A DNA stretch of 47,867 nucleotides from assembly GCA_021295965.1 (NCBI GenBank), contig JAGWBI010000039.1:24998-72864 (forward strand), in the 5' to 3' direction. The notes under the pieces were generated by a model. That model ran no database searches. It saw only the letters and a program-made list of their open reading frames with translations, and was not told the origin of the DNA. The position numbers and the translations under genes are program-made. This document shows positions 1,933-22,193 of this stretch, piece after piece. The stretch comes from Dehalococcoidia bacterium (GTDB lineage Bacteria; Chloroflexota; Dehalococcoidia; Lucifugimonadales; UBA3495). Every line of letters begins with the position of its first letter. The stretch's first letter is position 1.

Positions 1933-2332
1933 TTAGTCGTTGCTGAGGGTGACGGCGCCGGCGCGTCCATCGTAGGACAGGTGGAAATACCGTAAAAAAT
2001 CCCGGCCGATGATAGCAGAATGAGGTTGCCCGCCGGCATTCAGGTAAGCGCCAACAAACACGCCAGAGAAAACAACATCCAGCTCTGGCACGAAAATCTG
2101 GGCTAGGTGCATGTTCACCAGGCCTTCGCCGTGAACACCCGACACCGTTCGCTGGCTGACTACCGGCAACCGTAGCGTCATGGCGAGTTGGGAATCGACG
2201 CAACTCGTTTCTGAGGCCGGTATCCACCAGGGCCGTCCAAAGTTCCCGCACCGCTTCCCCGCGGAAGGGAATTCCAACTGCAACCTCGCTATCGAGGCTG
2301 ATCGCGACTGATAACGTTGGCCCGCGTCTCAT
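1933..2332 (-). pseudogene. Retropepsin-like aspartic protease, frameshifted at its active site (module copy 1)
   Basis: Two overlapping minus-strand frames together give a complete small retropepsin-like protease. The first frame runs from MRRGPTLSVAISLD to ALVDTG. The second continues as ASETSCVDSQLAMTLRLPVV, then SQRTVSGVHGEG, and ends with the family's IIGRDFL...YDGRAGAVTLS block. The frames change exactly at the catalytic motif near 2216-2220: GATACCGGCCTCA would read DTGAS if two bases (GC) were restored. A 2-nt deletion is therefore the simplest explanation, and no functional product is expected. The gene lies 31 bp downstream of, and on the same strand as, a small partner gene; similar pairs occur at 11986-12667 and 21565-22193. 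A sequencing error cannot be excluded from one sequence. Confidence 0.75.
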
Positions 2333-2363
2333 CAGGAAGTCGGGCTGACCTGCAAACCCACAG

Positions 2364-2612
2364 TCAGTCGTTGGCGTTGCGTTTCCTGTATGGCACGTAA
2401 GGTGGCAACGTTAGCGGCGGCTCTCCTACCTGCTTGATCAGGCAGGGGTTGCGGCCAAAGCGCTTTATTGCTACTTCGGCGGCGTCCTGGGATGTTTCAT
2501 AGACGCCAAAAAGCTCCTCATTATGAAAAATGACCCACTTGCCGAAGTGATCCAGCTCCAGATCATCTTGCATCGCTTCGTACGCTGCTAGGTTCTCTTT
2601 CAGAGTGCTCAT
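2364..2612 (-). CDS. Small DUF5678-like partner protein of the aspartic protease (module copy 1)
   Basis: An 82-residue protein starting at ATG 2612 with GGAGG about 7 nt upstream. The core HFGKWVIFHNEELFGVYETS followed by QDAAEVAIKRFG and the IKQVGEPPLTLP ending resembles the small DUF5678-type domain (GKWV, then a Gly-x-Tyr-Glu turn, a helix with Ala-Ala, and a valine-rich last strand). It has no catalytic motif, signal peptide or membrane segment. The same general pattern (GK[WV]V, GxYE, Arg-x-x-Pro, VG[FE]P) appears in the proteins preceding the other two aspartic proteases of the window, so all three may share a fold. It is the first gene of a two-gene unit whose protease is broken while this gene remains intact. 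The DUF5678 assignment is from memory of the pattern; the function is unknown. Confidence 0.7.
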   Translation of the reverse strand: MSTLKENLAAYEAMQDDLELDHFGKWVIFHNEELFGVYETSQDAAEVAIKRFGRNPCLIKQVGEPPLTLPPYVPYRKRNAND

Positions 2613-2668
2613 ATGTGAGCCTCCTACGGCGTTGCCAACGAGCGAACCGGAACTGTAAGTGTATGCTA

Positions 2669-2700
2669 ATGGCCCCCCTGCCGACGAGCAGGGGGGCCAT
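2669..2700 (-). terminator. Perfect 13-bp GC-rich hairpin between the module and the dienelactone hydrolase gene
   Basis: Arms ATGGCCCCCCTGC (2669-2681) and its exact complement (2688-2700) enclose a 6-nt loop. It lies 22 bp beyond the stop codon of the hydrolase gene on the minus strand, so a terminator is the natural reading, although no long T run follows. A TACACT box on the minus strand (2658-2663) comes next, so the palindrome could instead act as an operator for the small-protein/protease module. Confidence 0.55.
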
Positions 2701-2721
2701 TAAAACGCACGGCGATTCGGC

Positions 2722-3510
2722 TTACTTCAGGTGCTCGTTGAAGAAGGCCAAGGTGCGGGCCTGGGCGTCTTCGGCGGCGGCCTGGTTGTAGCTGTCGCGG
2801 TCGTCGCAGTTGAAGCCGTGGCCGGCTCCCGGGTACATCTTGAAGTCGTAAGACTTGCCAGCGGCATCCAACGCAGCCTCAATCTGAGTGACGTCTGCGG
2901 GCGTCGGGTTCCCATCGGTTTCACCGAAATTGCCCATCAACGGAATGCTGATGTTGGCGGTGCCGTCGATGGGGGTGACGCCGTCGCCGTAGGCGCCCAT
3001 GATAGCGCCGCCGTAATAGACTACGCCGGCGGAGAGGCCGTCGCACGCGCTGGCGGCCAGATAGACGACGCGTCCGCCCATGCAGTAACCGACGATGCCG
3101 ATCTTCTGCCCCCGGGTGCGGGGATAGGTGCGCTGCAGATAGTCAACGGTGGCGTTGATGTCGGCGATGATGCCCTGGCCGGTCAGTTCGGGCATATAGG
3201 TGTTGATGGCGGCGTCGAAGTCCTCGGGGGTGTAGCCCAGCACGGGGTTGGGGTTGCGGTCGTTGCGGTGGAACAGAGCGGGCGCCACGGCGACATAGCC
3301 CGCGGCGGCAAACTGGTCAGCCACTCGCTGTATGTGCCGGTTCACCCCGAAGGCTTCCTGGACCACGATGACGGCCGGCAGGCTGGTGCCGGCGCTAGGC
3401 GCGGGGAAGCTGACGTAGGCGGCCATGTCTCCGGCCTCGGCGATGTTGGCGCCAGATTCGCGATCTTCCATTGGGTCGGGCATTCGGATGTTTTCCCAGA
3501 ACGACGGCAT
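2722..3510 (-). CDS. Dienelactone hydrolase family protein
   Basis: A 262-residue alpha/beta hydrolase. The start is taken at ATG 3510 because GGAGGAGGA lies just upstream; a longer frame to 3570 lacks this. Family landmarks are all visible: QEAFGVN (the Glu of the oxyanion region), the nucleophile elbow GYCMGG with Cys as nucleophile, the Asp in GNFGETDGNP, and the His in GAGHGFNCDDR. This Cys-Asp-His triad is characteristic of dienelactone hydrolases, which open lactone rings such as dienelactone to maleylacetate in chloroaromatic breakdown. Many homologues act on other esters or lactones, so the substrate is uncertain. The protein should be cytoplasmic. It is apparently monocistronic, with a strong hairpin after its stop codon. 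Confidence 0.9.
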   Translation of the reverse strand: MPSFWENIRMPDPMEDRESGANIAEAGDMAAYVSFPAPSAGTSLPAVIVVQEAFGVNRHIQRVADQFAAAGYVAVAPALFHRNDRNPNPVLGYTPEDFDAAINTYMPELTGQGIIADINATVDYLQRTYPRTRGQKIGIVGYCMGGRVVYLAASACDGLSAGVVYYGGAIMGAYGDGVTPIDGTANISIPLMGNFGETDGNPTPADVTQIEAALDAAGKSYDFKMYPGAGHGFNCDDRDSYNQAAAEDAQARTLAFFNEHLK

Positions 3511-3681
3511 GGTTATTCCTCCTCCATTGGTTGCGCGAATGACAGTGATACAAGGGCGTGGCGGTGACAATGCGGAATTGCCCGCCGATAGTACCTTTCG
3601 TGCGCGGGAATTGTAACAAAGGATTGCCGGCCAAACAAGCGGGATACGGTGGCCCTGCCGAGCGACGCTCGGCGGCAGCGG

Positions 3682-3897
3682 TCACTCGCCAGGCTCCTGG
3701 GCCCGTCCGGTGCGCGTTGATTGGACCGCGGTCCGGGGCATCAGGTGTTCGAGGGTGGTCGCAGGGAGCTGATGTTGGTGGTGGTGGCGGTAACGACCGC
3801 ACTGCATGCACAGCCAGTCGTCTTTTGCGCGGTATTGGTCGTGAAGAAATAGATCGCCTCCGCAGCGGCGGCAGCCACGCAGAATGTACCGGGTCAC
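3682..3897 (-). CDS. Small zinc-ribbon protein
   Basis: A 71-residue protein starting at GTG 3897 with GGAG six bases upstream. Two Cys pairs, CRRCGG and CMQCGRY, are spaced about 19 residues apart and form a classical zinc ribbon within the first 35 residues. The remainder is rich in His, Gln, Thr and Arg and looks disordered (HHHQHQL). Single-ribbon proteins of this size are frequent and mostly uncharacterised; a nucleic-acid-binding or protein-docking role is plausible but not shown. It stands alone on the minus strand, 170 bp upstream of the hydrolase gene, and could share its transcript. Confidence 0.65.
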   Translation of the reverse strand: MTRYILRGCRRCGGDLFLHDQYRAKDDWLCMQCGRYRHHHQHQLPATTLEHLMPRTAVQSTRTGRAQEPGE

Positions 3898-4170
3898 TGC
3901 AAACTCCTGGGTCGGCCACGAGGGTTTTCCGAATCCCGCAACCGCAGGTGGGAATGTTCAGCCCCCCTATCGGTTTGGAAGCAGTGAGCCAATGATAAAA
4001 CATATGTGCTAAATTAGCAAGAAGCAGCAGGGCCTTGCCGGGATAGTGCACTATCCCGGTCATTACCATGAAAATAGCCGTCATGACGTAGGGGCAACCA
4101 CAAGGGTTGCCCCGGCTGGCGCGACCTTATTTTTTCAGTCTGCCTACGCGGCCTCGCAAGGCCATCCGCC

Positions 4171-4268
4171 GTTCCGGCGAAAGCCGGAATCCAGTAACCG
4201 AAACCGGTTGTCACTTTCACGATTCTTGCAGTTTATGGCTTCTGGACTCCGGTTTTTGCCGGAGTGAC
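4171..4268. repeat. Type-B dispersed palindromic element (REPIN-like)
   Basis: Two inverted half elements: GTTCCGGCGAAAGCCGGAAT at the left and the mirror image ACTCCGGTTTTTGCCGGAGTGAC at the right, about 98 bp overall. Each half is itself a hairpin. The same type is found at 16567-16669, with half elements at 32686-32713 and 40859-40886. Confidence 0.75.
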
Positions 4269-4313
4269 AGGGATGACGCGATTGCCCTGGGCGCAACCCA
4301 GGTTCGTTCGTTT

Positions 4314-4349
4314 GTCATTGCGAGTCCGCCTCTGGCGGATGGCAATCTC
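4314..4349. repeat. Type-A half element (REP-like)
   Basis: GTCATTGCGAGTCCGCCTCT followed by GGCGGATGGCAATCTC. It is identical to the left half of the full element at 19897-20005 and, inverted, to 19005-19043. Confidence 0.8.
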
Positions 4350-4641
4350 CAAGATACCAGGGTTTCGAGGACTATTTGGATTGGCCGGATTTGAGGAAAG
4401 TAATCCCGAGAATCCTTACAATACGGTCAATCCTGCTTCTGACGAAATCAAGGTCATTCCCTCACGCGTACCCAGTTTGTTGGCATGAGCTACGGCGGGC
4501 CCGTGGCGCGGAGCTTTGACGCAAAGACGCAGAGACGCAAAGGGACAATTGGGCTTGCGAGGGGAGTGTCCAATAATGAACCTCGAGATCCTGTTGCGTG
4601 AGCGCCATGACGGTTTGATCAAACTGGGTAAGCGTGAGAGG

Positions 4642-6297
4642 TCATTCCTGCCGGCGTTCTTCCCGCATGGTGATGATGGCCAGGGGGACCGAGGAAACCG
4701 CCACCAGCAGCAGGGCCGGAGCCGCCGCCCTGGCGAAGAAGGCTTCCTCCGCAGCGGCCCAGATGGACGACGCCAGGGTGGTGAATCCGATGGGACTCAG
4801 GATGAGGGTGGCTGGCAGTTCCTTCATGGTGAGCAGGAACACCAGCGCCGCGCCGGTCAGAATGCCGGGACGAATCAGGGGTAGCGTTACCATCACGAAC
4901 ACGCTTACCGGGCGTTTGCCCAGGCTGCGGGCGGCGTCCTCGTATTCGGGTCGCACCTGCACCAGCGAGGTCCGCAGGGATCCCACCGCCGCCGGCAGGA
5001 ACAGGGTCACGTAGGCCACGGCCAGCATGGCCAGCGACTGGTAGAGCCAAGTGGCATAATTCGCGCCGAAGAACACCAGACCCAGGGCGATGACGATACC
5101 GGGGAGGGCGAAACCGACGAAGCCCAGCCGTTCCAGCCACCGGCTGAGGACACCTGGATAGCGCACCGCCAGCATGGCGATGGGCACGGCGCAAACCACG
5201 GTGAGAGCGGCGGCCAGCGCCGAGACGCCCACGGAGTTGGCCGCCGCCTTCCACAGCAGCAACAGTGGCTCCCCGGCGGCGACGCCCCGCACCGTCCAAT
5301 ACACCAGCACCGCCACCGGCAGACCCAGTGAGACCAGGCCGACAGCGCTGCAATAGGCCAGGGCTGGCCAGCGCCAGCCTCCCAGGGGGATTGGTTCCGC
5401 CAGGCGCGACGCTCCGCCCTGGCTGCGGTAGTAGCGTCCGCTGCCGGCGTTTCGCGCCATATTCTCGCCCCACACGACCGACAGGGCCAGGACGATGAGC
5501 ACCAGCGACCAGGCGGCAGCCAGGTCGCGGCTGAACGTGTCGTACGCGATGAAAATGCTCCAGGTAAAGGTCTCATAGCGCATCATGGCGACAGCGCCGA
5601 AGTCGCTGAGGGTGTACAGAGCGGAGAGCAGCCCACCGGCCAGGATGGCCGGCCGCAGCATCGGCAGGGTAACGCTGCGGAAGGTCTGCCAACGGCTGCG
5701 ACCCAGGGCCCGGGCTGACTCCTCCAGGGTGGCGTCCATGTTCCAGAGAGCGGCGCGGACCGGCAACAGCACGTATGGGAAACTGAGGATTATGAGTGTG
5801 AAGGCAGCGCCGGGAAAACCGTAAATACTCGGAAGGCGTTCCACTCCGAAGCGCAATTCCAGCCACTCTTGCAGGAAACCGACCGGCCCCAGGCTCACCA
5901 CAATGGCGAACCCCACGATGTACGACGGCAGGGCCAGCGGCAGCATGGTGACCACGCGCCAGAAGCCACGGAAGGGCAGGTCGGTGCGCACGGTGAGCCA
6001 GGCCAGCGGCGCCGCGATGACCACGCAGCCCACCATTACCGTGCCCATGAGCGCCACGGTGCGAAGCAACACCCCAAGGATGCGGGCACGGAAGATCAGG
6101 TCGGCCGCCTCCGGGCCGGCGCCCAGTGTGCGCAGAGCCAGATAAACCGGCGCAATCAGCAGCAACGCCGCGATCAGCAGGGCCGGCGCCCAGGCGACGG
6201 CCGGAGGGCGAGCCATGCCCTCAAACAGCCAATCCCCGCCGATCCCCAGATCAATTACACGCCGGGTTGGCCCGGTTATCTTGGCGGCGAATGACAT
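4642..6297 (-). CDS. Iron(III)-type ABC transporter permease (fused two-domain)
   Basis: A 551-residue inner-membrane protein of about twelve helices. It carries two binding-protein-dependent transport permease domains, each with the cytoplasmic EAA loop that docks the ATPase: ESARALGRSRWQTFRSVTLP in the first half and DAARSLGKRPVSVFVMVTLP in the second. The duplicated layout is that of FbpB/AfuB/ThiP-type importers for ferric iron, with thiamine, phosphonate or other anions as alternatives. The linked DtxR-like gene 21 bp upstream favours a metal. No binding protein or ATPase gene is adjacent, so they must be encoded elsewhere or the set is incomplete. The start ATG 6297 has only a weak ribosome binding site; expression is probably coupled to the preceding regulator gene. 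Confidence 0.88.
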   Translation of the reverse strand: MSFAAKITGPTRRVIDLGIGGDWLFEGMARPPAVAWAPALLIAALLLIAPVYLALRTLGAGPEAADLIFRARILGVLLRTVALMGTVMVGCVVIAAPLAWLTVRTDLPFRGFWRVVTMLPLALPSYIVGFAIVVSLGPVGFLQEWLELRFGVERLPSIYGFPGAAFTLIILSFPYVLLPVRAALWNMDATLEESARALGRSRWQTFRSVTLPMLRPAILAGGLLSALYTLSDFGAVAMMRYETFTWSIFIAYDTFSRDLAAAWSLVLIVLALSVVWGENMARNAGSGRYYRSQGGASRLAEPIPLGGWRWPALAYCSAVGLVSLGLPVAVLVYWTVRGVAAGEPLLLLWKAAANSVGVSALAAALTVVCAVPIAMLAVRYPGVLSRWLERLGFVGFALPGIVIALGLVFFGANYATWLYQSLAMLAVAYVTLFLPAAVGSLRTSLVQVRPEYEDAARSLGKRPVSVFVMVTLPLIRPGILTGAALVFLLTMKELPATLILSPIGFTTLASSIWAAAEEAFFARAAAPALLLVAVSSVPLAIITMREERRQE

Positions 6298-6318
6298 TGG
6301 CGGGGCCGCCCCCGAGGT

Positions 6319-7077
6319 TTATTCGGTGTCAGCCGGGCGCACCGCGATCTGGGTGGCCACGTCGTAGCCGATGGAGACCAGGGTAGCTTCGGTTTGCACG
6401 CGCAGCACTCCCAGGTATGGCATCGCTTCCAGGAGCGTCATGTTGCGGCCCGGCACCAGCTGGGCCTCGCCCAGGAACTTCAAAAGCTCGGCATTCTCTT
6501 CCGGTACACGGTCCACGACATACGGCACGTCGCAGGTGGCGTTGTTCAGCGTCACCGCGCCGGGCGCGGCAGTCGGCGCGCCGCTGCCGGGTATCGGCCA
6601 TCCGAAGGGAGAGTGGGTCGGATGGCCCAGGCGTTCCATCAACCTGACCTCCAGGGCCGGCGACATGCCATGCTCCAGTTGATGGGCCTCGATATGCGCC
6701 TCGTGCAGCTCCATACCCAGCAATCTGACGACCAGCCACTCGGCCAGCCGGTGCCGCCGGGCGATGCTCTCGCCCTCCATCTGGCCCCGGTCGGTCAGCC
6801 GGATGCGCTTGTCCTTGCCAATATCCACCAGGCCCAGCTTCTCCATGCGTCGCAGCATACCGGCAACGGACGGCACCGAGGTACCCAATCCCTCGGTAGG
6901 CGGCAACTGGCGCAGCGCCTCCGTCAATCGGGTCAATGTGGGGATCTCCGAGTCCTCCCACATTTTGTACAGAGAGAGGAGATAGTTCTCAGTGACCGGC
7001 GACAGGCGCTCGGCGCCATTGTGCGCGTGCGTCTGCGGGTTGGCCGCGGCGGTGGTTGATTTGCGAGGACGTGGCAC
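6319..7077 (-). CDS. DtxR/MntR-family metal-dependent repressor
   Basis: A 252-residue regulator starting at GTG 7077. After a disordered N-terminus (about 25 residues), a winged-helix region (about 26-95) contains VTENYLLSLYKMWED and SVAGMLRRMEKLGLVDIGKD. It is followed by the dimerisation/metal-binding domain typical of the family, with RHRLAEWLVVRLLGMELHEA and EAHQLEHGMSPALEVRLMERLG (His and Glu ligands). The last 75 residues resemble the SH3-like FeoA domain. Proteins of this family bind Fe2+ or Mn2+ and repress metal uptake genes. Here it is followed after 21 bp by an iron-type permease, so it probably controls its own operon. The loop between the dimerisation and FeoA-like parts is longer than usual (PIPGSGAPTAAPGAVTLNN). 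Confidence 0.87.
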   Translation of the reverse strand: MPRPRKSTTAAANPQTHAHNGAERLSPVTENYLLSLYKMWEDSEIPTLTRLTEALRQLPPTEGLGTSVPSVAGMLRRMEKLGLVDIGKDKRIRLTDRGQMEGESIARRHRLAEWLVVRLLGMELHEAHIEAHQLEHGMSPALEVRLMERLGHPTHSPFGWPIPGSGAPTAAPGAVTLNNATCDVPYVVDRVPEENAELLKFLGEAQLVPGRNMTLLEAMPYLGVLRVQTEATLVSIGYDVATQIAVRPADTE

Positions 7078-7188
7078 GAATTATTCCGATGGCAGTGCGT
7101 GATTACTCATCAGATTATACCCCACTGGAAGCATAGTTATTTCGTCGCTACCGATCAGCACACGGCAATTGCATTTCTGAGAACAATA

Positions 7189-7224
7189 GGAGAAGGGCTC
7201 CTGGATGGTCAAGAGCCCTTCTCC
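7189..7224 (-). terminator. 12-bp hairpin downstream of the repeat-protein gene
   Basis: GGAGAAGGGCTC (7189-7200) and GAGCCCTTCTCC (7213-7224) form a perfect stem with a 12-nt loop. It lies about 50 bp past the stop of the minus-strand repeat-protein gene and before the regulator gene. The following minus-strand sequence is moderately T-rich. It separates the two transcription units. Confidence 0.6.
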
Positions 7225-7274
7225 AGACCCCTACCTCCCCAGCGAAGGGAGAGGAGATCTTTGGGAAACTAAAC

Positions 7275-8135
7275 CTACGCCGACTGCTGCCGGTTCTGAT
7301 CGTTCTCGTTGTCTCCGGACCTGGCGGTGTCAACAACTACGCGCACGCCGCTGATAGTGCCGGTTACGGCATCGCGCACCGCGTCGCCGGCGGCGTCGCT
7401 GACGTCATAGGCGGCGTCGATGGCGCCCCTGGCGGCGGCGGAGGCAGTCTCCTCGACGTTCTGCCCGGTGGTGCGGGCCGCGTCGATGGCGCCGTTCACT
7501 GCCGACACAGCGACCTCAGCGACGTCCTCGCCGGTCTGGGCCGCGCTGGAAATCAACTGCCGGGTAGTGGCGGTGGTTGCGGTGGTAACGTCGCCGGCGG
7601 TACCGGCGACAGCGGCGATGACGCCGGCCACGGTGCCTCGGGCCGCGTCGGTCAGCGCGCCGCCGACCTCCCTGGTGGCATCGATGGTGCCGCGGGTTAC
7701 CTGCACCACGGATTCCTGGCCGGTCAACCCCACGGACGCGCCGCCCCGGAGGGCTCCTTCCACCGCGCTCTGGGTGGCGGTGCCCAGTTCCGCTCCCACT
7801 CCGCTGGAGCCGCGAATGGCGCCCACCACAACGTCGTGCAGCATGGTGGTGGTGGCGGTGCCCACCATGCCCACGCCTTGAATGACGCCGATGGTGGAGT
7901 CGCGAACCACGGTTCCGGCGGCGCCGCCAACGTTGCCGGCGGCTTGCAGGGTTCCGACGACGGCATCCTGGGCCAGGTTCCCGACCTCACCGCCCACGGA
8001 ACGGGCGCTGCGCAGAGCGTTGGCCGTGGTGTCGCGGACCGTATCAATGGCAACGTTGCCGACGCGCCCGGTACCCTGCAGCGTCCCCGTCAACGCATCC
8101 CTGACCGAAGTGCCGATTCTTCCAAGGATAGTCAT
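7275..8135 (-). CDS. Glycine/alanine-rich repeat protein, LEA/phasin-like
   Basis: A 286-residue protein with a very strong ribosome binding site (AAGGAGGAG) before ATG 8135. Most of it is a degenerate repeat of about 36 residues in the form [AV]VxGTLQ/IRG..GVGxxxGTxxxxxV.G.[IL], for example AVVGTLQAAGNVGGAAGTVV and VVVGAIRGSSGVGAELGTAT. The C-terminal third becomes alanine-rich (SAAARGAIDAAYDVSDAAGD) and ends in an acidic, Asn/Gln-rich tail. It has no Cys, Trp or recognisable catalytic motif and no signal peptide. The composition suggests extended amphipathic helices as in LEA-type, phasin-like or apolipoprotein-like proteins. A surface-coating or stress-protective role is a guess. It is followed by a hairpin terminator and appears monocistronic, with a promoter probably within 8136-8300. 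Confidence 0.75.
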   Translation of the reverse strand: MTILGRIGTSVRDALTGTLQGTGRVGNVAIDTVRDTTANALRSARSVGGEVGNLAQDAVVGTLQAAGNVGGAAGTVVRDSTIGVIQGVGMVGTATTTMLHDVVVGAIRGSSGVGAELGTATQSAVEGALRGGASVGLTGQESVVQVTRGTIDATREVGGALTDAARGTVAGVIAAVAGTAGDVTTATTATTRQLISSAAQTGEDVAEVAVSAVNGAIDAARTTGQNVEETASAAARGAIDAAYDVSDAAGDAVRDAVTGTISGVRVVVDTARSGDNENDQNRQQSA

Positions 8136-8339
8136 AATCTCTCCTCCTTACCGGCGCCTTCCCGCCGGACGAACGTATTCCAAAAAATTCGCGTTTACAA
8201 AAATTCAAGTGGCTCATGCCGCTCGTTGCTATTTAGTTTACATATTTCGCGTATCGGCTCAAAGTACTCAGTGTCACCGAATGGCGGAAATTTGACGCTG
8301 CCGATGAGCATCAACGGCCGGTGGCAGGTTGCGAGCTGA

Positions 8340-8348
8340 TGCTAAAAT
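8340..8348 (+). promoter_or_regulatory. Extended -10-like TGCTAAAAT before Uma2
   Basis: TGCTAAAAT lies 17 bp before the Uma2 start. It matches the extended -10 pattern TGnTAnnAT seen before several genes of the window; no -35 is evident, and the very short leader is a reason for caution. Confidence 0.3.
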
Positions 8349-8365
8349 GAGGGCGGGAGGTCGTG

Positions 8366-9004: not shown

Positions 9005-9019
9005 CCCGCGTGGCTTGAG

Positions 9020-9433: not shown

Positions 9434-9436
9434 TGG

Positions 9437-9465
9437 TTGACAATTAGGCATCCCCTGGCTACTAT
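9437..9465 (+). promoter_or_regulatory. Near-consensus sigma-70 promoter
   Basis: TTGACA (9437-9442), exactly 17 bp of spacer, then TACTAT (9460-9465). It is the best promoter match in the window. Transcription is expected to begin near 9472, immediately before two hairpins. Confidence 0.65.
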
Positions 9466-9471
9466 TGTGTT

Positions 9472-11985: not shown

Positions 11986-12258
11986 ATGGCAGTCAACAAC
12001 AGCGGAGATGATGCGGCCATCGTGGGCCGGGCCATCTACAACGAGAAAATACTCCCCACCCTGGGGCCCGAGCACAAGGGCAAGGTGGTGGTCATCGACG
12101 TGAACAGCGGTGATTACGAGATTGCGGACAAGCACATGACCGCCGCCACGCGATTGAGGGAGCGGCAGCCTGAGGCATACACTTGGGCGGAACGGGTGGG
12201 TTTTCCGGCAGTGTTCCGTATGCCATTTCGGTACACTTACGGAAGTTTTCCACACTGA
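11986..12258 (+). CDS. Small partner protein with GDYEIAD motif (module copy 2)
   Basis: A 90-residue protein beginning 36 bp after the lactonase stop, with a GAGGGGG-type ribosome binding site. The core HKGKVVVIDVNSGDYEIADK, a helix TAATRLRERQPEAYTW and the strand VGFPAVFRM align well with the partner protein at 21924-22193 (GRYLALEVETGDYEIADS, EMRERHP, RIGYPA). The shared GDYEIAD and R-R/E-R-x-P blocks show homology, and the layout also resembles the DUF5678-like partner at 2364-2612. It has no catalytic residues, membrane segment or signal. A gene for an aspartic protease starts 10 bp downstream, so the pair is a conserved unit. Its molecular role is unknown. Confidence 0.75.
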   Translation: MAVNNSGDDAAIVGRAIYNEKILPTLGPEHKGKVVVIDVNSGDYEIADKHMTAATRLRERQPEAYTWAERVGFPAVFRMPFRYTYGSFPH

Positions 12259-12268: not shown

Positions 12269-12667
12269 ATGATCAGGGGCAGAGTAGAGCGGAACTCTGG
12301 CGGTGGATTGGAGCCATGGCTCATCATACCCGTTGAAGACGCTAACGGAGAGTTGCATCACATTGACGTCATCGTTGATACCGCATTTACCGGGTGTCTG
12401 ACGTTGCCCGAAGCCGTTATCAGTCGGCTTGGCTTGGTCAGGCAGGGCGTGCAGCAGGCAACTGTAGCCAGCGGTGAAGTGGAAGGTTTTGACTACTACG
12501 CCGCAAGGATGCTGTGGCATGGGCAACTCCGACGAGTGGAGGTTTTCGAGTCGATAGACTAGTCCCTGCTTGGAACTGAATTGCTGGAAGGCAGCCGCGT
12601 GGTCGTTGACACTTGGGAAGGCGGCGACGTGATCATTGAGGAAGTCCCGCCAGGGCCGCCGGCATAG
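12269..12667 (+). pseudogene. Clan AA aspartic protease (DTGF type) interrupted by a stop codon (module copy 2)
   Basis: The frame starts at ATG 12269 and reads IDVIVDTAFTGCLTLPEAVI, homologous to VVIDTGFNGDLTLPAEFI of the gene at 21565-21927. It stops at TAG 12560-12562 directly after VFESID. The same frame continues with SLLGTELLEGSRVVVDTWEG then GDVIIE to a second stop at 12665-12667, matching SLLGTNLIQGSRLTVQMWEG then GDVVIE of the intact copy. A single C-to-T change (CAG to TAG) would explain the stop. In addition, the catalytic DTG reads DTA. Both changes argue against activity, although Ala at this position might occur in some relatives. The partner gene upstream is intact. Confidence 0.8.
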
Positions 12668-14597: not shown

Positions 14598-14611
14598 GGG
14601 AGCATTGCCCA

Positions 14612-14620: not shown

Positions 14621-14649
14621 TGCGTCAATAAACGACGCGGGCCAACCAC

Positions 14650-15675: not shown

Positions 15676-15714
15676 CCATGCTGCTCCAAGCGATCCCACC
15701 CAGGGGTTTTCCAA

Positions 15715-16542
15715 CTACCGCCCCTTGAACTCCGGCGCCCGCTTCTCCAGGAAGGCTTGCCGCGCCTCCCGGGCGTCCTCGGAGCCGCTGAGGATGCCGC
15801 CGGCGTTGGAGGTGAGGGTCATGGTGGTTTCCAGGGTGCTGTCCAGGGCGGCGCGCATGATGCGCTTGCTGATCCACTGCACCATGGGCGGCGTGCGGAT
15901 GATGCGGTCGCACAGGTCTTCCGAGGGCACCAGGTAGTTGAGCATACCCCACTCGTAGGCGCGCTGGGCGTCCAGGTGGCCGGTGTAGGCGAACTCCAGG
16001 GCGCGGCCCAACCCGACCATCTTGGGCAGGTAGTAGCTGCCGCCGTTCTCGATGATCTGCCCCAGCTGCTGGTAGCCGATGAACCGGGTGTTCTCGCAGC
16101 CCAGGCGGATGTCGCAGTGCAGGGCCATGTCCATGCCGGAGCCGACGGCGGGGCCGTTGATCATGGCGATGGTGGGCTTGCGGACCTGGGAGATGTCCCG
16201 GTGCAGCTTGGTGAAGCCGTGGTAGAAATGCTCCCGCGCCGCGTCCGGCCCCTCGTGTGTGCCTCGGTTGCCCACGAAGTTCTCGCCGGTGACGTCAGGC
16301 GAGTTGTCGCGCCGCATATCGGCGCCGGAGCAGAAGCCCCGGCCCACGCCGGTGAGCACCATGACGCGCACGTTGGGATCGTCGTCGCCGGCCCGCATGT
16401 ACTCGCCCACCTTGGCGACGGTGCCGTTCTCCTCAGAGGAGCCGATCAGCGCGTTCATCCGCTCGGGACGGTTGAACTTGATCCACAGGATGCCCGATTC
16501 CTCGGGTTCATAGAGCAGGTAGGGGACCAGGTTGGGGGGCAT
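15715..16542 (-). CDS. Enoyl-CoA hydratase/isomerase (crotonase) family protein
   Basis: A 275-residue crotonase-fold protein with AAGGAGAATCCCC before ATG 16542. Family marks are ILWIKFNRPERMNAL, the oxyanion-hole segment GVGRGFCSGADMRRDN, and PTIAMINGPAVGSGMDMALH with the second oxyanion loop. The catalytic-Glu region reads QIIENGGSYYLPKMVGLGRA. The C-terminal helix carries AREARQAFLEKRAPEFKGR, the standard ending. Members hydrate, isomerise or cleave acyl-CoA thioesters; the precise reaction is unknown because residues around both catalytic Glu positions vary in this family. It is probably monocistronic, flanked by a type-B palindromic element. Confidence 0.9.
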   Translation of the reverse strand: MPPNLVPYLLYEPEESGILWIKFNRPERMNALIGSSEENGTVAKVGEYMRAGDDDPNVRVMVLTGVGRGFCSGADMRRDNSPDVTGENFVGNRGTHEGPDAAREHFYHGFTKLHRDISQVRKPTIAMINGPAVGSGMDMALHCDIRLGCENTRFIGYQQLGQIIENGGSYYLPKMVGLGRALEFAYTGHLDAQRAYEWGMLNYLVPSEDLCDRIIRTPPMVQWISKRIMRAALDSTLETTMTLTSNAGGILSGSEDAREARQAFLEKRAPEFKGR

Positions 16543-16566
16543 GGGGATTCTCCTTGTAAAATCGTC

Positions 16567-16669
16567 GTCACTCCGGCGAAAGCCGGAGTCCAGGAATGGC
16601 AGGGTGCGTATATTCGGCTAAGTTGCCAGCGACTGGTGGCACTGGATTCCCGCTTTCGCGGGAATGACG
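16567..16669. repeat. Type-B dispersed palindromic element (full length, REPIN-like)
   Basis: Left half GTCACTCCGGCGAAAGCCGG and right half ATTCCCGCTTTCGCGGGAATGAC in inverted orientation, about 103 bp in total. The outer ends GTCA and TGAC are complementary. It matches the element at 4171-4268 in design. Confidence 0.8.
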
Positions 16670-16677
16670 GTGAAATG

Positions 16678-17361
16678 TCAACACGGTCTGGTGAAAAGGT
16701 CAAAAATCCGTTCCCGCACGGCGAAACGGAAGCCGGACAGAACGTCATCGTCGCCGTCAATATACTCCGGGTCACACAGCGTCTCCGGCTTCTGTCCGGG
16801 CCGGAACTTGATGACCGTGCGGGTTTCGCTGTCGATGTACCACGCCAGTTTTGTGTCGTGTTCCAGGAACAGATTGATTTTGTCGAGCAGTTCCGCGTTG
16901 CTGTTGGACGGCGATTTTATTTCGGCGATGAAGTCCGGCACGACGTGGGGAAAGGCCCGTGTTGCCGGCTCGTCCAGCAGGTGGCGACGTTCCTCGCTAA
17001 TCCAGGCGGCGTCCGGCCCGTAGTACGAACCGTCCGGCAAGGTGAACCGGCTGCTGGACGGGAAGGCGATCCCTCCGTGATGACGAGTCCAGATGAACAG
17101 GTCTGCGCTCATCTCGCCTTCGTACACTGAGCCGGGATAGCCGGTGGGTTCGCGAATCAGCAGGTGGCCCGTGCTGGAAATTTCGTACTCGTACATATCA
17201 GAGTTCCGCTCCGCGAAAGCCTCAAACCATTGGTCAAGGTCGGGGTCGTCTAGCGACTTGCCGAACTCGGCCAGTGGTATCGCCACCGCCCTCGTCCATC
17301 GCGGCGGCGGCTTGGGTCGGGTTCCCCGTGACTGTAATGTACCGGCGGTCGTCATAGTCAT
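16678..17361 (-). CDS. Uma2-family putative endonuclease (tandem copy b)
   Basis: A 227-residue Uma2 protein. Its start ATG 17361 overlaps the stop codon of the preceding Uma2 gene (TAATG), so the two are translationally coupled. Key blocks are DLDQWFEAFAERNSDMYEYE, the family Asp in YGPDAAWISEER, and VVPDFIAEIKSPSNSNAELL followed by DKINLFLEHDTKLAWYIDSE. It is very similar to the upstream copy, most strongly in the C-terminal half, and the DNA is nearly identical over long stretches around IKSPSNSNAELLDKINLFLE. This points to a recent tandem duplication with possible gene conversion. The divergent N-terminal halves contain the parts expected to set target specificity. Confidence 0.9.
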   Translation of the reverse strand: MTMTTAGTLQSRGTRPKPPPRWTRAVAIPLAEFGKSLDDPDLDQWFEAFAERNSDMYEYEISSTGHLLIREPTGYPGSVYEGEMSADLFIWTRHHGGIAFPSSSRFTLPDGSYYGPDAAWISEERRHLLDEPATRAFPHVVPDFIAEIKSPSNSNAELLDKINLFLEHDTKLAWYIDSETRTVIKFRPGQKPETLCDPEYIDGDDDVLSGFRFAVRERIFDLFTRPC

Positions 17362-18038
17362 TACTCCGCGTCGGTGAAAAGGTCAAAGATCCGTTCCCGC
17401 ACAGTGAAACGGAAGCCGGGCAGAACGTCATCATCGCCGTCAATGTACTCCGGGTTGTGCAGCGTCTCGGGTTCCTGTCCGGGGCGGAACTTGATGACCG
17501 TGCGGGTTTCGCTGTCGATGTACCAAGCCAGCCGGGCGCCGTGTTCCAGGAACAGGTTGATTTTGTCGAGCAGCTCCGCGTTGCTGTTGGACGGCGATTT
17601 TATTTCGGCGACAAAATCGGGCACGATGCGCGGAAAGGGTAGGTTCTCCGGCAGCATGATTTCATGCCGCCGTTCCTCGCGTAGCCAGGCAGCATCGGGA
17701 CCGAAATGGGAGCCATCGGGCAAAATGAACCGACTGGTGGGACCGAAGGACATACCCCCGTATTCGCCAGTCCAGTTGCCCAGTACGATAGCCAGTTGAT
17801 TCTCGTACAGAGCGCCGGGGTTGCCGGTAGGCTCCCGAATCATAAGGTGGCCCGTGTTGGAAATTTCGTACTCGCCCATGTCCGAATTCCTTTCTGCGAA
17901 TCCTTCAAACCATTGGTCAAGGTCGGGGTCATCCAGCGACTTGCCGAACTCGGCCAGCGGAATCGCCACCACGCCCGGCCATTGTGGTGGCGGTTTGCCT
18001 CGGACTTCCCGCGCCTGCGACGCGACGGAGGTTGTCAT
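17361..18038 (-). CDS. Uma2-family putative endonuclease (tandem copy a)
   Basis: A 225-residue Uma2 protein with GGAG seven bases before ATG 18038. Blocks are FGKSLDDPDLDQWFEGFAER, FGPDAAWLREERRHE, IVPDFVAEIKSPSNSNAELL and LEHGARLAWYIDSETRTVIK. The family Asp and the Glu-x-Lys pair are present, consistent with a PD-(D/E)XK active site. It is followed by its tandem duplicate with a 1-nt overlap, and together they form a two-gene operon on the minus strand. Both are of a different subtype from the copies at 8366 and 47249. The biological role of Uma2 proteins is unresolved. Confidence 0.9.
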   Translation of the reverse strand: MTTSVASQAREVRGKPPPQWPGVVAIPLAEFGKSLDDPDLDQWFEGFAERNSDMGEYEISNTGHLMIREPTGNPGALYENQLAIVLGNWTGEYGGMSFGPTSRFILPDGSHFGPDAAWLREERRHEIMLPENLPFPRIVPDFVAEIKSPSNSNAELLDKINLFLEHGARLAWYIDSETRTVIKFRPGQEPETLHNPEYIDGDDDVLPGFRFTVRERIFDLFTDAE

Positions 18039-18107
18039 CGTTGCTACTCCCTGTTGGCGAAAAGGTCACCAGTCCATTCCCGTCACAACGACAGAGCGGA
18101 GGTGCCG

Positions 18108-18860
18108 CTACTGCGCCGTCCGTCCGCCGTCGATTACCAGTTCCGAGCCGGTGACAAAAGATGATTCGTCGCTGGCCAGGTAGAGGACTCCATAGGCGAT
18201 TTCAATGGGTTGCCCGACCCGGCCCAGGGGAACGCGGCCCACCTGCTGGGCAATTCTGACCTCGTCATCTTGGGTGGTGCCGAGCATGGGGGTCTGCACC
18301 GGGCCGGGATGTACGGAGTTGCAGCGGATGCCTTCGCCGGCGTACTGGATGGCGGTGGACTTGGTGAACAGGCGCACGGCCCCCTTGCTGGCGGCGTAGG
18401 CTCCCGAGGTGCCGGGAGCCGGCGCGATGCCGGCGCCGGAGGAAATGTTGATGATGGAGCCACCGCCGGCCTGCCGCATCGCCGGTATGACCTCGCGGGT
18501 GCCCAGGAAAACGCCCTTGACGTTGATGTCCATGGTGCGTTCCCATTGCGCTTCGGTCATGTCCTCGATGCCGCCCCTGGTGGAAATGCCGGCGTTGTTG
18601 ACGAGGATGTCCACCTTGCCGAAACGGGACACCGCCGCAGCGACCGCGCTCCGCCAGTCGTCCTCACTGGTGACGTCCAGGTGAACGAACAGGCATTCCG
18701 CGCCGGTCTCGTTGATTTCGGCCTCGGTGCGGCGTCCCTCCTCGTCCAGCACATCTCCGATGACTACCTTCGCGCCTTCGCCGGCGAACAGCTTGGCTTC
18801 CTGCGCGCCCATACCCCGTGCTCCCCCGCTGATGATGGCGACCTTGTTTTCCAGCCGCAT
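18108..18860 (-). CDS. Short-chain dehydrogenase/reductase (SDR)
   Basis: A 250-residue classical SDR with CAGGAGGTTAAGCC before ATG 18860. It has the nucleotide-binding ISGGARGMGAQEAKLF (TGxxxGxG variant), the adenine-ring motif VDILVNNAGIS, the Ser of SIINISSGAG and the catalytic YAASKGA. The C-terminal DESSFVTGSELVIDGG is also typical. Asp after the second strand (VVIGDVLDEEG) predicts NAD(H) preference. It resembles glucose-1-dehydrogenase or cyclopentanol-dehydrogenase-like enzymes, but the substrate cannot be read from the sequence. A TACAAT box on the minus strand (18893-18898) lies 32 bp upstream. It is divergent from the second SDR gene at 19106. Confidence 0.9.
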   Translation of the reverse strand: MRLENKVAIISGGARGMGAQEAKLFAGEGAKVVIGDVLDEEGRRTEAEINETGAECLFVHLDVTSEDDWRSAVAAAVSRFGKVDILVNNAGISTRGGIEDMTEAQWERTMDINVKGVFLGTREVIPAMRQAGGGSIINISSGAGIAPAPGTSGAYAASKGAVRLFTKSTAIQYAGEGIRCNSVHPGPVQTPMLGTTQDDEVRIAQQVGRVPLGRVGQPIEIAYGVLYLASDESSFVTGSELVIDGGRTAQ

Positions 18861-18892
18861 GGCTTAACCTCCTGGTGCCGATAGGTGGGATG

Positions 18893-18898
18893 ATTGTA
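18893..18898 (-). promoter_or_regulatory. -10-like TACAAT for the minus-strand SDR gene
   Basis: On the minus strand, GGGCTACAAT stands about 33 bp upstream of the start codon. No clear -35 is present. Confidence 0.3.
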
Positions 18899-19004
18899 GC
18901 CCGGCTGTGCTGGGGGTCAAGTTGAGACCTGCGATGTCCCATTGGTCATTGCCAAGAGCGTAGCGACTGGGCAGTCTCGCCGGCGAGCCGACGATCCCCC
19001 GGCA

Positions 19005-19043
19005 ACGAGATTGCCATCCGCCAGAGGCGGACTCGCAATGACA
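19005..19043. repeat. Type-A half element (REP-like)
   Basis: Inverted copy of CTGTCATTGCGAGTCCGCCT followed by CTGGCGGATGGCAATCTCG. It is preceded (18948-18990) by a more degenerate related segment with AGAGCGTAGCGACTGGGCAG, so the pair may be a worn full element. Confidence 0.75.
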
Positions 19044-19063
19044 GGTGGGCAGCGCTCATCCGC

Positions 19064-19069
19064 TATAAT
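19064..19069 (+). promoter_or_regulatory. -10-like TATAAT before the plus-strand SDR gene
   Basis: A perfect TATAAT 37 bp before the start codon at 19106; the position where a -35 would lie falls at the end of a dispersed repeat and does not match the consensus. Confidence 0.35.
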
Positions 19070-19105
19070 CCGGCAACTTCAACGATATGCAACGGGGTAA
19101 CAATC

Positions 19106-19870
19106 ATGGAAATTGCGGGCGGAGTGTTCATTGTCACCGGTTCGGCCACCGGGTTGGGGGCGGAGGTGTCGCGGCGGCTGGCCGGCAAGGGCGGCAACGT
19201 GGTCATCAACTACACCAAGAGCGAGGCCGAGGCGCAGGCGACCGCGGAAGAATGCAGAAAGCTCGGAGCGGATGCCATTCTGTGCCGAGCGGATGTCTCA
19301 GTGGACGAGGACTGCCGGCGGATGGCGGCGGAGGTGCTGAAACGATGGGGCCGGATCGACGGCCTGGTGAACAACGCGGCCACGTCGGTGATCGTGCCTC
19401 ACGCCAACCTGGAAGGGCTGTCCTCCGAGGACTTCCAGCGTGTCCTCTCGGTGAATGTGGTCGGGGCGTTCCAGATGGTGCGGGCGGCGACGCCGGCCAT
19501 GCAGGCGCAGGGCAAGGGGGCCATCGTCAATATCTCGTCGGGTTCGGCCTTCAGCGGGTCGGGCAGTTCCATCGCCTACGCGGCATCCAAGGCGGCGCTG
19601 AACGTGATGACCTACTCGCTGGCCCGCGCCCTCGCGCCGGCGATCAGGGTCAACGCCGTATGTCCCGGCGTGATGCAAACCCGATGGTGGCGCGAGGGTC
19701 TGGGCGAGGAGGGCTACCAGGCGTTCATCGACCGCTACGCGGCGTCGGCCCCGCTGGGCACGGCCGGCACCACCGAGGCCGTGGCAGATCCGGTAGTGTG
19801 GCTGCTGGAAGGAGCGGATCATGTGACCGGCGAGACCATCATGGTTGACGCCGGGAGCCACCTGCGCTGA
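19106..19870 (+). CDS. Short-chain dehydrogenase/reductase (SDR)
   Basis: A 254-residue classical SDR. VFIVTGSATGLGAEVSRRLA is the TGxxxGxG cofactor site; GRIDGLVNNAATS, the Ser of AIVNISSGSAFSG and YAASKAALNVMTYSLARALA supply the catalytic Asn-Ser-Tyr-Lys set. The ending DHVTGETIMVDAGSHL is usual for the family. The second strand ends VVINYTKSEAEA, lacking the Asp that favours NAD, so NADP may be used. It has a perfect TATAAT box 37 bp upstream and a weak ribosome binding site. It is divergently arranged with the other SDR gene and followed by a full-length type-A repeat. The substrate is unknown. Confidence 0.9.
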   Translation: MEIAGGVFIVTGSATGLGAEVSRRLAGKGGNVVINYTKSEAEAQATAEECRKLGADAILCRADVSVDEDCRRMAAEVLKRWGRIDGLVNNAATSVIVPHANLEGLSSEDFQRVLSVNVVGAFQMVRAATPAMQAQGKGAIVNISSGSAFSGSGSSIAYAASKAALNVMTYSLARALAPAIRVNAVCPGVMQTRWWREGLGEEGYQAFIDRYAASAPLGTAGTTEAVADPVVWLLEGADHVTGETIMVDAGSHLR

Positions 19871-19896
19871 GCCGGTCGCTCATGCGTACCTCCTTT

Positions 19897-20005
19897 GTCA
19901 TTGCGAGTCCGCCTCTGGCGGATGGCAATCTCGTTGCTGCAACGAGGCTCGTCACGAGGGTGATTCTGCCATCCGCCTGCGGCGGACTTCGCTCCTCGCA
20001 GTGAC
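19897..20005. repeat. Type-A dispersed palindromic element (full length, REPIN-like)
   Basis: Two inverted halves: GTCATTGCGAGTCCGCCTCT at the left and GGCGGACTTCGCTCCTCGCA followed by GTGAC at the right, joined by a short spacer with GTTGCTGCAACGAG. Outer ends GTCATTGCGAG and CTCGCAGTGAC are complementary with one mismatch. Similar full elements are at 31402-31508, 32571-32671 and 34129-34229. Confidence 0.85.
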
Positions 20006-20037
20006 AAAACGGGTATCCGCGGCAGCGGCTAAGGATC

Positions 20038-21552
20038 GTGGCAGCGTCCGCTGACATAATTCTCCACAACGCCGTAGTGCACGGGCCGGTAAGGACGGCC
20101 GACGCCGTGGTGGTGTCCGGCGGGGTCATCGCCGCTGTAGGCAACAGCGCGGAGTTGATGCGGCGGGCGGGCGATGACACGCAGGTCATCGACTGCGGAG
20201 GGCGGGTCGTCGTGCCAGGCATCGTTGACCCCCATTGCCACCTGTTCGCGGCGGCAGCGGCCCGCAACGGTGTGGACTGCCGGCCGGCGGCGGCCCCGGA
20301 TGTCGCGGCGGTGATCGCAGCGTTGCGGACGGCGGCGGCCCAGGGTACTGGTTGGCTACGCGGATATGGTTACGATGATTCTCCGACGGGATTGGGTCGG
20401 CACCTGAACCGGCATGACCTGGACGCTGTAGCGACGCAAGTACCCGTGCGGGTGGAGCATCGCTCGGGCCACGCCTGCGTGCTGAACAGCGTGGGGTTGG
20501 CGCAAGTGGGCATTGGGCGAGACACGCCGGATCCCCCCGGCGGTGTCATTGTGCGGGACGCCGCTGGTGACCCGACCGGCCTCCTGCTGGAGATGGGCGG
20601 CTGGCTGAGGGAGCGCGCCGGTGTCCGCTCCGGTACGGACAAGACCGCGTTGCGGCGTCTGGCGCAGCGGTTGCTGGGATACGGCATTACCGCCGCCACC
20701 GACGCGGGGCCGGACAACGGTTTGGAACGGTGGCAATCGTTTATCGCGGTTGTTGGCGATGGGACGCTGCCACTGCGGTTGACGATGATGGTCGGCTTCG
20801 GCCACATGGATGCAATACGGCAGGCTGGCCTGAGTTATGGATCAGCCGCGTGTGACGGCATGCTGACCGTAGGCCACGCCAAGATCATGTTGACGGCGTC
20901 GGGCGGAACGCTGCAGCCGCACCCGGCGGAACTGGCCGAGATGGTAGCGGAGGCGCACGGGCTGGGCTTCCCGGTGGCAGTACACGCGGTGGAGCGGGAC
21001 GCGGTAGTCGCGGCGGCTTTGGCGCTGGCGGACGCGCCGTCGCTGGAGTTACCGGACGGACGCATCGCGCCGGACCGCATCGAGCATTGCGCCGAGTGCC
21101 CGCCGGACGTGCTGGAGCTGGTGGCGTCTTCGGGAGCGGCGGTTACGGTCAACGCCGGGTTTCTGCACTACGACGGGGAACGCTACCGGCGCACCGTTGC
21201 CGCCGACCTGCTGCCGCACCTGTATCCGGCCGGCGCTCTGGCGGCCCGGGGCGTACCCGTTGCCCTGGCATCGGATGCGCCGGTGGTCGAGCCGAACCCG
21301 TGGGCGGCGATGGCGGCGGCGGTTACGCGGCGGTCAGCGGAGGGCGAATCGCTGGGCGGTGTAAGTGTGCCGTCGGTGGCGGATGCGCTGGGGATGCACA
21401 CTAACGGAGAACGCATCGCGGCCGGCGGTCCGGCTGACCTGGCGGTGGTGGAGCCGGACCCGTTGGGGGCGGTGGTTGAGGAATTGGCGTCGGTTAGGGC
21501 AGTGGTTACGGTGGTAGGTGGGCGTGTGGTGTGGCAGCGAATCAGGGGGTAA
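20038..21552 (+). CDS. Amidohydrolase (YtcJ-like, Amidohydro_3 type)
   Basis: A 504-residue metal-dependent hydrolase starting at GTG 20038 with AAGGA upstream. The N-terminal composite beta domain (ADIILHNAVVHGPVRTADAV) is followed by the metal ligands in VVVPGIVDPHCHLFAAAAA, GFPVAVHAVERDAV, PDRIEHCAECPPDV and the final Asp in PVALASDAPVVEPNPW. It ends with GPADLAVVEPDPLG and VRAVVTVVGGRVVW, the returning beta domain. The order fits the COG1574 group of imidazolonepropionase/YtcJ-like amidohydrolases acting on N-acyl or cyclic amides. Codons are very GC-rich. The precise substrate is unknown. The last 12 bp separate it from a convergent protease gene. Confidence 0.9.
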   Translation: MAASADIILHNAVVHGPVRTADAVVVSGGVIAAVGNSAELMRRAGDDTQVIDCGGRVVVPGIVDPHCHLFAAAAARNGVDCRPAAAPDVAAVIAALRTAAAQGTGWLRGYGYDDSPTGLGRHLNRHDLDAVATQVPVRVEHRSGHACVLNSVGLAQVGIGRDTPDPPGGVIVRDAAGDPTGLLLEMGGWLRERAGVRSGTDKTALRRLAQRLLGYGITAATDAGPDNGLERWQSFIAVVGDGTLPLRLTMMVGFGHMDAIRQAGLSYGSAACDGMLTVGHAKIMLTASGGTLQPHPAELAEMVAEAHGLGFPVAVHAVERDAVVAAALALADAPSLELPDGRIAPDRIEHCAECPPDVLELVASSGAAVTVNAGFLHYDGERYRRTVAADLLPHLYPAGALAARGVPVALASDAPVVEPNPWAAMAAAVTRRSAEGESLGGVSVPSVADALGMHTNGERIAAGGPADLAVVEPDPLGAVVEELASVRAVVTVVGGRVVWQRIRG

Positions 21553-21564
21553 TCTCCTGGACAC

Positions 21565-21927
21565 CTACTCAATCACCACGTCACCGCCCTCCCACATTTG
21601 CACGGTCAACCTGCTCCCTTGAATCAGGTTAGTACCCAGCAGGGATTGATTCCTCGACTCCATCACTTCAATGACTCGCCTTTCTCCTTCCCAAAGCACG
21701 ATAGCTCCGTAATGGTTGTAATCGTTGGTTTGCCCATCAGCCAGCGTTGCTGGAATTTCGCCATACAATGGTAGCCCGAGTTCACGTATGAACTCTGCCG
21801 GTAGAGTGAGGTCGCCGTTAAACCCGGTGTCGATGACCACTTCCTGGCGCCATCGATACCCGTTGCCGTCCACCAGAGCAACAGGAACGATTGCTTCCAG
21901 GTCGCTATTGACGTACCCGGAGATCAC
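21565..21927 (-). CDS. Clan AA aspartic protease of the DTGF type (intact, module copy 3)
   Basis: A 120-residue retropepsin-like protein, the size of one lobe, so it must dimerise to form an active site as retroviral proteases do. The catalytic motif is WRQEVVIDTGFNGDLTLPAE, followed by the flap-like region GEIPATLADGQTNDYNHYGA and the hydrophobic-Gly segment SLLGTNLIQGSRLTVQMWEG. It starts at GTG 21927, which overlaps the TGA stop of the partner gene by 3-4 bases (GTGA), with CGGAGG upstream, so translation is coupled. It is the only uninterrupted protease among three such modules in the window. The substrate is unknown; the partner protein is an obvious candidate inhibitor or target. Confidence 0.87.
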   Translation of the reverse strand: MISGYVNSDLEAIVPVALVDGNGYRWRQEVVIDTGFNGDLTLPAEFIRELGLPLYGEIPATLADGQTNDYNHYGAIVLWEGERRVIEVMESRNQSLLGTNLIQGSRLTVQMWEGGDVVIE

Positions 21928-22193
21928 AGCCTGCCTCCGAATTGACCCCCTAGTTTCAATGCCGCTGGATAACCGATGCGAAAAGTGTAAAACAGGGTCG
22001 GCAGCGGATGCCGCTCCCGCATTTCCTCGTTGGCGGCGACGATGCTATCGGCAATCTCATAGTCGCCCGTTTCCACCTCCAGCGCCAGGTAGCGGCCGTG
22101 TTCGTGCGGCTCCAGCTTGTGCCGCAGCTCGGTGTCGTAGATGGCGTGGGCGCGAGTACCCAACTCGCTACGTTGCTGTTTCTCGGATGCCAT
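21924..22193 (-). CDS. Small partner protein with GDYEIAD motif (module copy 3)
   Basis: An 89-residue protein. ATG 22193 is chosen because AAGGAG lies 7-8 nt upstream; the frame stays open to 22247 without support. The core HGRYLALEVETGDYEIADSI, a charged helix AANEEMRERHPLP and the strand YTFRIGYPAALKLGG match the protein at 11986-12258. The N-terminal helix EKQQRSELGTRAHAIYDTEL is polar. No enzymatic motif, signal or membrane segment is seen. The last codon overlaps the start of the aspartic protease gene, so the two proteins are produced from one message in a fixed order. An inverted repeat overlapping a -10-like box precedes it and may allow autoregulation. Confidence 0.8.
   Translation of the reverse strand: MASEKQQRSELGTRAHAIYDTELRHKLEPHEHGRYLALEVETGDYEIADSIVAANEEMRERHPLPTLFYTFRIGYPAALKLGGQFGGRL

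Follow-up and report, generated by a model that had tools for sequence, protein, structure and literature searches.

Why would a bacterium place the gene for a small protein of 82 to 90 residues directly before that of a single-lobe, retropepsin-like aspartic protease, and is the association of the two genes a functional one? The question is raised by a 47,867-nucleotide stretch of DNA from a Dehalococcoidia bacterium of the phylum Chloroflexota (assembly GCA_021295965.1, contig JAGWBI010000039.1, positions 24,998 to 72,864 of the forward strand; the whole of it is called the window here), in which such a pair occurs three times. A preliminary description of this DNA had proposed that the pair is a conserved functional unit, and our comparisons bear this out. 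The pairing of partner and protease is a real and widespread unit: it is reciprocal in two phyla, the two genes nearly always overlap by exactly 4 bp, a third partner subfamily comes with a protease of its own, purifying selection acts on both genes and some cyanobacteria have the two joined in one chain. The linkage of partner and protease is strongly supported by these observations; the nature of the partner's action is a matter of graded probability, and is weighed below against three rival explanations.

Pairing of partner and protease

Adjacency of the two gene families proved anything but rare outside the window. In the host genome, a protease lies downstream, on the same strand, of 12/12 partners of the kind found in window copies 2 and 3 (type A), the gap between match edges being 187 bp or less, a pairing beyond chance. 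Across a sample of 251 Chloroflexota genomes, searched with E thresholds of 0.001 for the partner and 1e-8 for the protease, the type A partner is present in 21; a protease follows 41 of the 55 partners (one of them as a weak, partial match only) and 40 of the 42 proteases are preceded by a partner. The second sample consisted of 194 genomes of Cyanobacteria, the phylum of Candidatus Paraprochloron terpiosi (locus L132, genome G251), where the protease threshold was 1e-12 and pairing was scored for partners of at least 50 bits with a protease within 260 bp. Among the matches listed, a scope that holds for all our cyanobacterial partner counts, a protease was found behind 51 of 81 partners, and 53 of 58 proteases come with a partner; of the five partnerless proteases, two stand 623 and 1148 bp downstream of a partner, and others are fragments. 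Type A and a third kind of partner, type C, together occur in 43 of these 194 genomes.

The best 80 of 112 relatives, found via the partner, were retained as named loci. A protease match stands just downstream in 69 of them, and wherever the protease start was measurable the overlap with the partner was almost invariably the same, being exactly 4 bp in 61 of 64 pairs. Type C, the cyanobacterial kind of partner with its own protease, precedes a more distant DTGF protease and forms tandem arrays at several places. The kind of partner found in window copy 1 (type B) has 41 BLAST matches in 20 of the 251 genomes of the phylum, its own genome included. Of these, 29 loci were examined and 22 proved to have a D[TS]G protease downstream, in two cases with a second copy of the partner in between; at type B loci, as at the DUF5678 loci considered below, such neighbors were found by pattern and not by profile.

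Within the window, the order, strand and spacing of the three pairs are precisely those first described. Copy 1 lies on the minus strand: its type B partner (2364..2612, 82 residues) is an intact reading frame from ATG to stop, and the protease ATG follows 31 bp downstream. Its protease (1933..2332) is broken and runs in two reading frames, the break falling directly 3' of the catalytic DTG. The piece ending in ALVDTG aligns to residues 10-48 of an intact relative (E 0.001) and the second piece to residues 49-139 of the same protein (57% identity, E 3e-38), so that the two, compared separately, cover one intact relative end to end. Copy 2, on the plus strand, has an intact type A partner of 90 residues (11986..12258), recognized by its open reading frame and by alignment, and after 10 bp a truncated protease of 97 residues (12269..12562) that ends at an in-frame TAG (12560-12562), with homology continuing beyond the stop to about 12652. 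Copy 3, again on the minus strand, is the complete one; its type A partner (21924..22193, 89 residues), recognized in the same way and also modelled, is intact, and its protease (21565..21927, 120 residues) starts at a GTG within the partner's stop, the two genes sharing GTGA.

The catalytic D-T/S-G motif is present in copy 3 (IDTGF) and in the first piece of copy 1 (VDTG); copy 2 has DTA in its place. The window therefore holds three intact partners and a single intact protease, that of copy 3, and it is a modest example of the module, with two of three proteases broken. Three intact copies are ruled out by the stop and the DTA of copy 2 and by the frame break of copy 1. The earlier claim of an aspartic protease in each pair stands in full for copy 3; in copies 1 and 2 the protease is broken, which had been missed. 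Since the assemblies are draft or metagenomic, sequencing or assembly error may be the cause of broken proteases at single loci, window copies 1 and 2 included.

The modules appear to be free-standing. A larger operon was considered and rejected, because no neighbor recurs among 104 flanking open reading frames, chosen as the longest at 54 of the 80 named loci: these frames fall into 68 Pfam families of which the commonest occurs in 3, and no defence model matched more than one of the 104. At L178, L176, L179, L010 and L095, two or three modules stand head to tail in tandem. The named matches (L059-L138) are nearly all metagenome bins, and many of those with the prefixes RHO, COS, IRC, SB06xx and jk18x presumably derive from marine sponges. 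In a tree of 53 named proteases, a starred branch unites one Myxococcota row with two from Chloroflexota, a grouping consistent with transfer but no proof of it. A plasmid search with one type A query returned two Nostoc records; on one, NZ_AP023442.1 (L272:10824-11461), a BREX-1 locus has the module between its pglZ and pglX, on the opposite strand, with genes that the record calls "hypothetical protein" and "clan AA aspartic protease". The search of phage records with one type A protein gave no match, and none of 119 type A pattern matches in viral contigs was a relative; both searches were confined to type A.

The protease, its partners and their fusion

The proteases of window copies 2 and 3 are, judged by their profile scores, relatives and not members of the NCBIfam family TIGR03698 (clan_AA_DTGF): copy 3 matches it at 7.9e-12 (45.4 bits) and the copy 2 piece at 2.1e-6 (28 bits), both under the curated cut-off of 57.35. 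All members of the wider protease alignment A5 (45/45) match the same model at E 0.001 or better. The predicted structure of the copy 3 protease (pLDDT, the predicted local distance difference test, 92) has the retropepsin fold, and its best Foldseek match in the PDB is 5c9b from Rickettsia (E 5.6e-5), followed by HIV-1 protease (5.5e-4); comparison with solved structures by sequence gave nothing of weight (best E 0.53). In this model, the first strand starts at residue 2, which leaves no visible room for a signal peptide, and the enzyme is hence probably cytoplasmic. A padloc scan of the window's proteins returned a single peptidase match (2e-4). The host genome also carries a separate set of DTGA-type proteases (L026, L027, L028 and L019), beside which no partner of this kind was seen.

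The partners are less easily placed. Those of type A have no Pfam or NCBIfam match of weight and no curated model; window partners 2 and 3 do not match the Pfam family DUF5678 (PF18929) even at E 1, and only 3 of the 53 members of type A alignment A4 touch it at E 0.1 or better (best 0.0061). That partners 2 and 3 are homologous to each other, as first proposed, is confirmed by an alignment (A1) of 12 host-genome members. The model of the copy 3 partner (pLDDT 84) is an alpha-beta-beta-alpha-beta arrangement, and searching solved structures with the partner sequence gave no result. Window partner 1 likewise fails to match DUF5678 (cut-off 23.2 bits) at E 0.1. Its type B relatives do reach that family: the DUF5678 model finds type B places at G077:C12, G085:C22 and G101:C67 above the cut-off and at G000:C12 just below it. 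Profile comparison gives a clear link between types A and C (98%, E 4e-14), a weak one between A and B (probability 60%, E 8.7e-5, against E 0.2 for a column-shuffled control) and a still weaker one between B and C (5%, E 0.0087); the controls, one column shuffle per pair, ranged from E 0.13 to 0.68, and alignment A4 compared with window partner 1 alone reached 1%. The resemblance of partner 1 to partners 2 and 3, previously read from a common order of motifs, is thus that of a separate family whose weak profile likeness to type A rises above the shuffled control. It is possible, on these profiles, that all three kinds of partner are homologous.

DUF5678 itself is found near retropepsins. In the window's own phylum, the next gene is a protease in 3 of 14 DUF5678 loci by pattern and in two more by eye. 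Among the 194 cyanobacterial genomes, 27 have matches to the DUF5678 model, at 30 loci in all. At 17 of the 30 the open frame continues from the domain into a retropepsin-like stretch with DSG (L242, L243, L246, L247, L251-L253, L255-L258 and L260-L265). One further fusion carries NSG, and in two other loci the protease is the next gene. Pfam recognizes both DUF5678 and Asp_protease_2 above cut-off in two of these fused proteins. DUF5678 is N-terminal in the fused chains, the same order as that of the split genes. That some cyanobacteria make both as one protein is suggestive of direct control of the protease by the small protein.

Other contexts of these domains were also seen. Several cyanobacterial frames contain DUF5678 with no protease part in view (L244, L245, L248, L254, L266 and L271), and in L219, L221 and L227, which belong to another family of the phylum, the domain stands at the N-terminal end of proteins some 550-580 residues long. 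At L107:2989-3450, a partner and the first part of a protease share one open frame, possibly by recent fusion or by a lost stop; the protease is broken there.

Loss of the protease and the role of the partner

Purifying selection is evident in both genes: the median ratio of nonsynonymous to synonymous substitution rates (dN/dS) is 0.14 over 98 sequence pairs of the partner and 0.18 over 109 of the protease. Their losses, however, are asymmetric: no protease was detected for 44 of 136 partners, whereas 7 of 100 proteases lack a partner (Fisher p 2e-6), among the matches listed and with contig ends checked for part of the 136. Of the 80 named loci, 52 have an intact protease and 17 a broken or incomplete one; 10 have none, and 1 lies at a contig end. 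Solitary partners were inspected in detail in sets of 8, 11 and 9 loci, with one locus counted twice. Twelve of them (L033, L035, L036, L039, L078, L089, L120, L150, L158, L166, L168 and L169) keep the first 10-40 or so codons of a protease, which then breaks off; the others have no trace of the protease, or meet a contig end (L081). At L033, L035 and L036 the protease has been lost at one apparently shared breakpoint. Because the breakpoint looks shared, the loss appears to be old, and a deletion common to three genomes is not an assembly error. The solitary partners of these three loci have pairwise dN/dS of only 0.06-0.09. At another locus, L060 (= L040), a solitary partner is followed by frames that resemble, by eye, a Phd-type antitoxin and a PIN toxin.

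The explanation that we favor, with about as much conviction as doubt, is that partner and protease form a split prodomain, in which the partner binds the protease and restrains or folds it, either in trans or, where fused, in cis. The free-standing two-gene module would encode a cytoplasmic and presumably dimeric retropepsin-type protease together with its small dedicated partner. Ribosomes would translate the partner and, by coupling through the RTGA overlap, continue straight into the protease, so that the protease appears beside its partner. The partner domain would bind the enzyme and keep it inactive, or help it to fold, until some signal removed the partner and the protease could act on its substrates; in the DUF5678 version of Cyanobacteria, the same domain would be the N-terminal part of the chain. 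An active protease, possibly toxic when free, would be costly and hence often inactivated or deleted, and the partner would be kept after this loss, perhaps since it still tames other copies, cellular or incoming. In more general terms, the partner would restrain, fold or aim the protease and evolve in the manner of an antitoxin. The conservation of solitary partners fits the restraint of a harmful enzyme together with a guard against other copies, and fits equally a role of the partner's own. That the partner inhibits the protease we infer from this combination of features.

Several observations weigh against this explanation. A partner conserved in the absence of its protease may do something besides guarding. 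Many solitary partners may, conversely, simply be decaying, since 7 of the 44 contain internal stops, as compared with one partner that has a protease (G165:C48). Neither Pfam, NCBIfam nor padloc scans recognized an inhibitor or DNA-binding domain in the window partners, and the model of the copy 3 partner matched no solved fold in the PDB (best E 0.66). Because the profile match between types A and B is weak, these partners may be unrelated and may have come to pair with retropepsins independently. Finally, three proteases of the host genome have altered active-site triplets (DTA, DAG and DTE), and some copies may for that reason not work by proteolysis.

The rival that survives best is a true toxin-antitoxin system, with the protease as toxin, the partner as labile antitoxin and persistence by addiction or by phage defence; we regard this as unlikely, if still a serious candidate. 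Its gene organization is the expected one, the genes being short, the partner first and the RTGA overlap between them, but in some cyanobacteria both halves are fused in one chain. Fusion of toxin and antitoxin in one chain is unusual. The many scattered copies (12 in the host), the tandem copies and the patchy occurrence (in 21 of the 251 genomes of the phylum and, for types A and C among the matches listed, in 43 of 194 in Cyanobacteria) count in its favor, as does one plasmid copy within a BREX-1 locus; yet type A was not found in phage records or viral contigs, and no defence family recurs in the flanks. At L238, an RHH_1 DNA-binding domain is fused to DUF5678, both above the Pfam cut-off, as would suit such a system, but no protease was found within 900 bp. 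The asymmetric loss of the protease is also toxin-like, although the partner stays under selection once the protease is gone, which plain addiction does not predict.

We consider it improbable that the partner is instead an adaptor that brings targets to the protease, or a substrate or processed product of it. The fusion and the tight coupling would fit an adaptor as well. Retroviral proteases favor cleavage sites that resemble [FYL]P[IV], and such a string stands between the two domains in 17 of the 18 fused proteins, the NSG one included, at 33-34 residues before the catalytic residue in 16 of these 17. Self-cleavage of the fused chains between their domains is a speculation that this arrangement invites. 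However, the string may belong to the fold, the linkers include near-copies (15 are distinct among the 18), and a partner conserved without its protease would need another role. That the two genes merely share transcription, the partner's function being unrelated, is very improbable: the three protease-less partners under purifying selection (pairwise dN/dS 0.06-0.09) would suit it, but three kinds of partner are each paired with the same fold, the genes overlap by 4 bp or are fused in one chain, and partnerless proteases are few (2 of 42 and 5 of 58, among the matches listed).

The split-prodomain explanation can be extended to a larger and somewhat doubtful proposal. DUF5678 and the partners of types A and C may constitute one superfamily of retropepsin controllers, and the pairs may represent a new class of prokaryotic effector modules: split or fused cytoplasmic zymogens of an HIV-protease-like enzyme, freed by stress or by an invader, that have spread as multi-copy mobile units among cyanobacteria and Chloroflexota, probably sponge-dwelling ones. 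More immediately, the pairing supplies a working context for DUF5678 and for the unnamed partner family, it predicts a physical complex of partner and protease, and it bears on how bacteria use and control a single-domain protease fold known from retroviruses. If the partner does restrain the protease, prokaryotes would have in this module their own equivalent of zymogen control for retropepsins, and protease effectors in settings of defence or of the toxin-antitoxin kind might be drawn from it.

Comparison with known systems

The pairing is undescribed in the literature searched; its protease has a known fold, and its partners belong to families without an assigned function. The previous assertion that no named system has this composition agrees with that literature, but its parts do have names, namely the clan AA aspartic protease of TIGR03698 and DUF5678. 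An earlier account of the module is possible, most subscription papers lying outside the search. DUF5678 has no recorded function in Pfam and was hardly mentioned in the literature searched. It resembles the partners in that type B relatives score above its cut-off and in that it adjoins or is fused to retropepsins; it differs from those of the window in that partner 1 is below its reach and type A makes only weak contact with it.

The protease shares its single lobe, its DTG and its retropepsin fold with TIGR03698 and with the bacterial retropepsin-like proteases 5c9b, of Rickettsia conorii, and RimB and RloA, of Pseudomonas, although the copy 3 enzyme falls short of the TIGR03698 cut-off. 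According to the available portions of their accounts, RimB works together with RimK, RloA is a secreted protein, and these portions mention no DUF5678-like partner (PMC12239564, PMC11957791).

With type II toxin-antitoxin systems, the module has in common two short, overlapping, co-directional genes with the partner first, a scattered and patchy distribution and the more frequent loss of the effector. It differs in that the window partners have no ribbon-helix-helix or helix-turn-helix match in Pfam or NCBIfam and that no known toxin family was matched. In the available part of a 2009 survey of toxin-antitoxin systems, the predicted protease is of the zinc type (COG2856) and is paired with Xre/helix-turn-helix proteins, and a word search of that part finds neither "aspartyl" nor "aspartic" (PMC2701414).

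The remaining comparison is with zymogens that carry an N-terminal prodomain, which inhibits the enzyme and is removed on activation; the [FYL]P[IV] string of the fused relatives is at most a hint of such removal. They differ from the module of the window and of the type A loci, where partner and protease are separate genes; in the cyanobacterial chains, however, DUF5678 is N-terminal to the retropepsin just as a prodomain would be, and the order of the split genes mirrors this arrangement.

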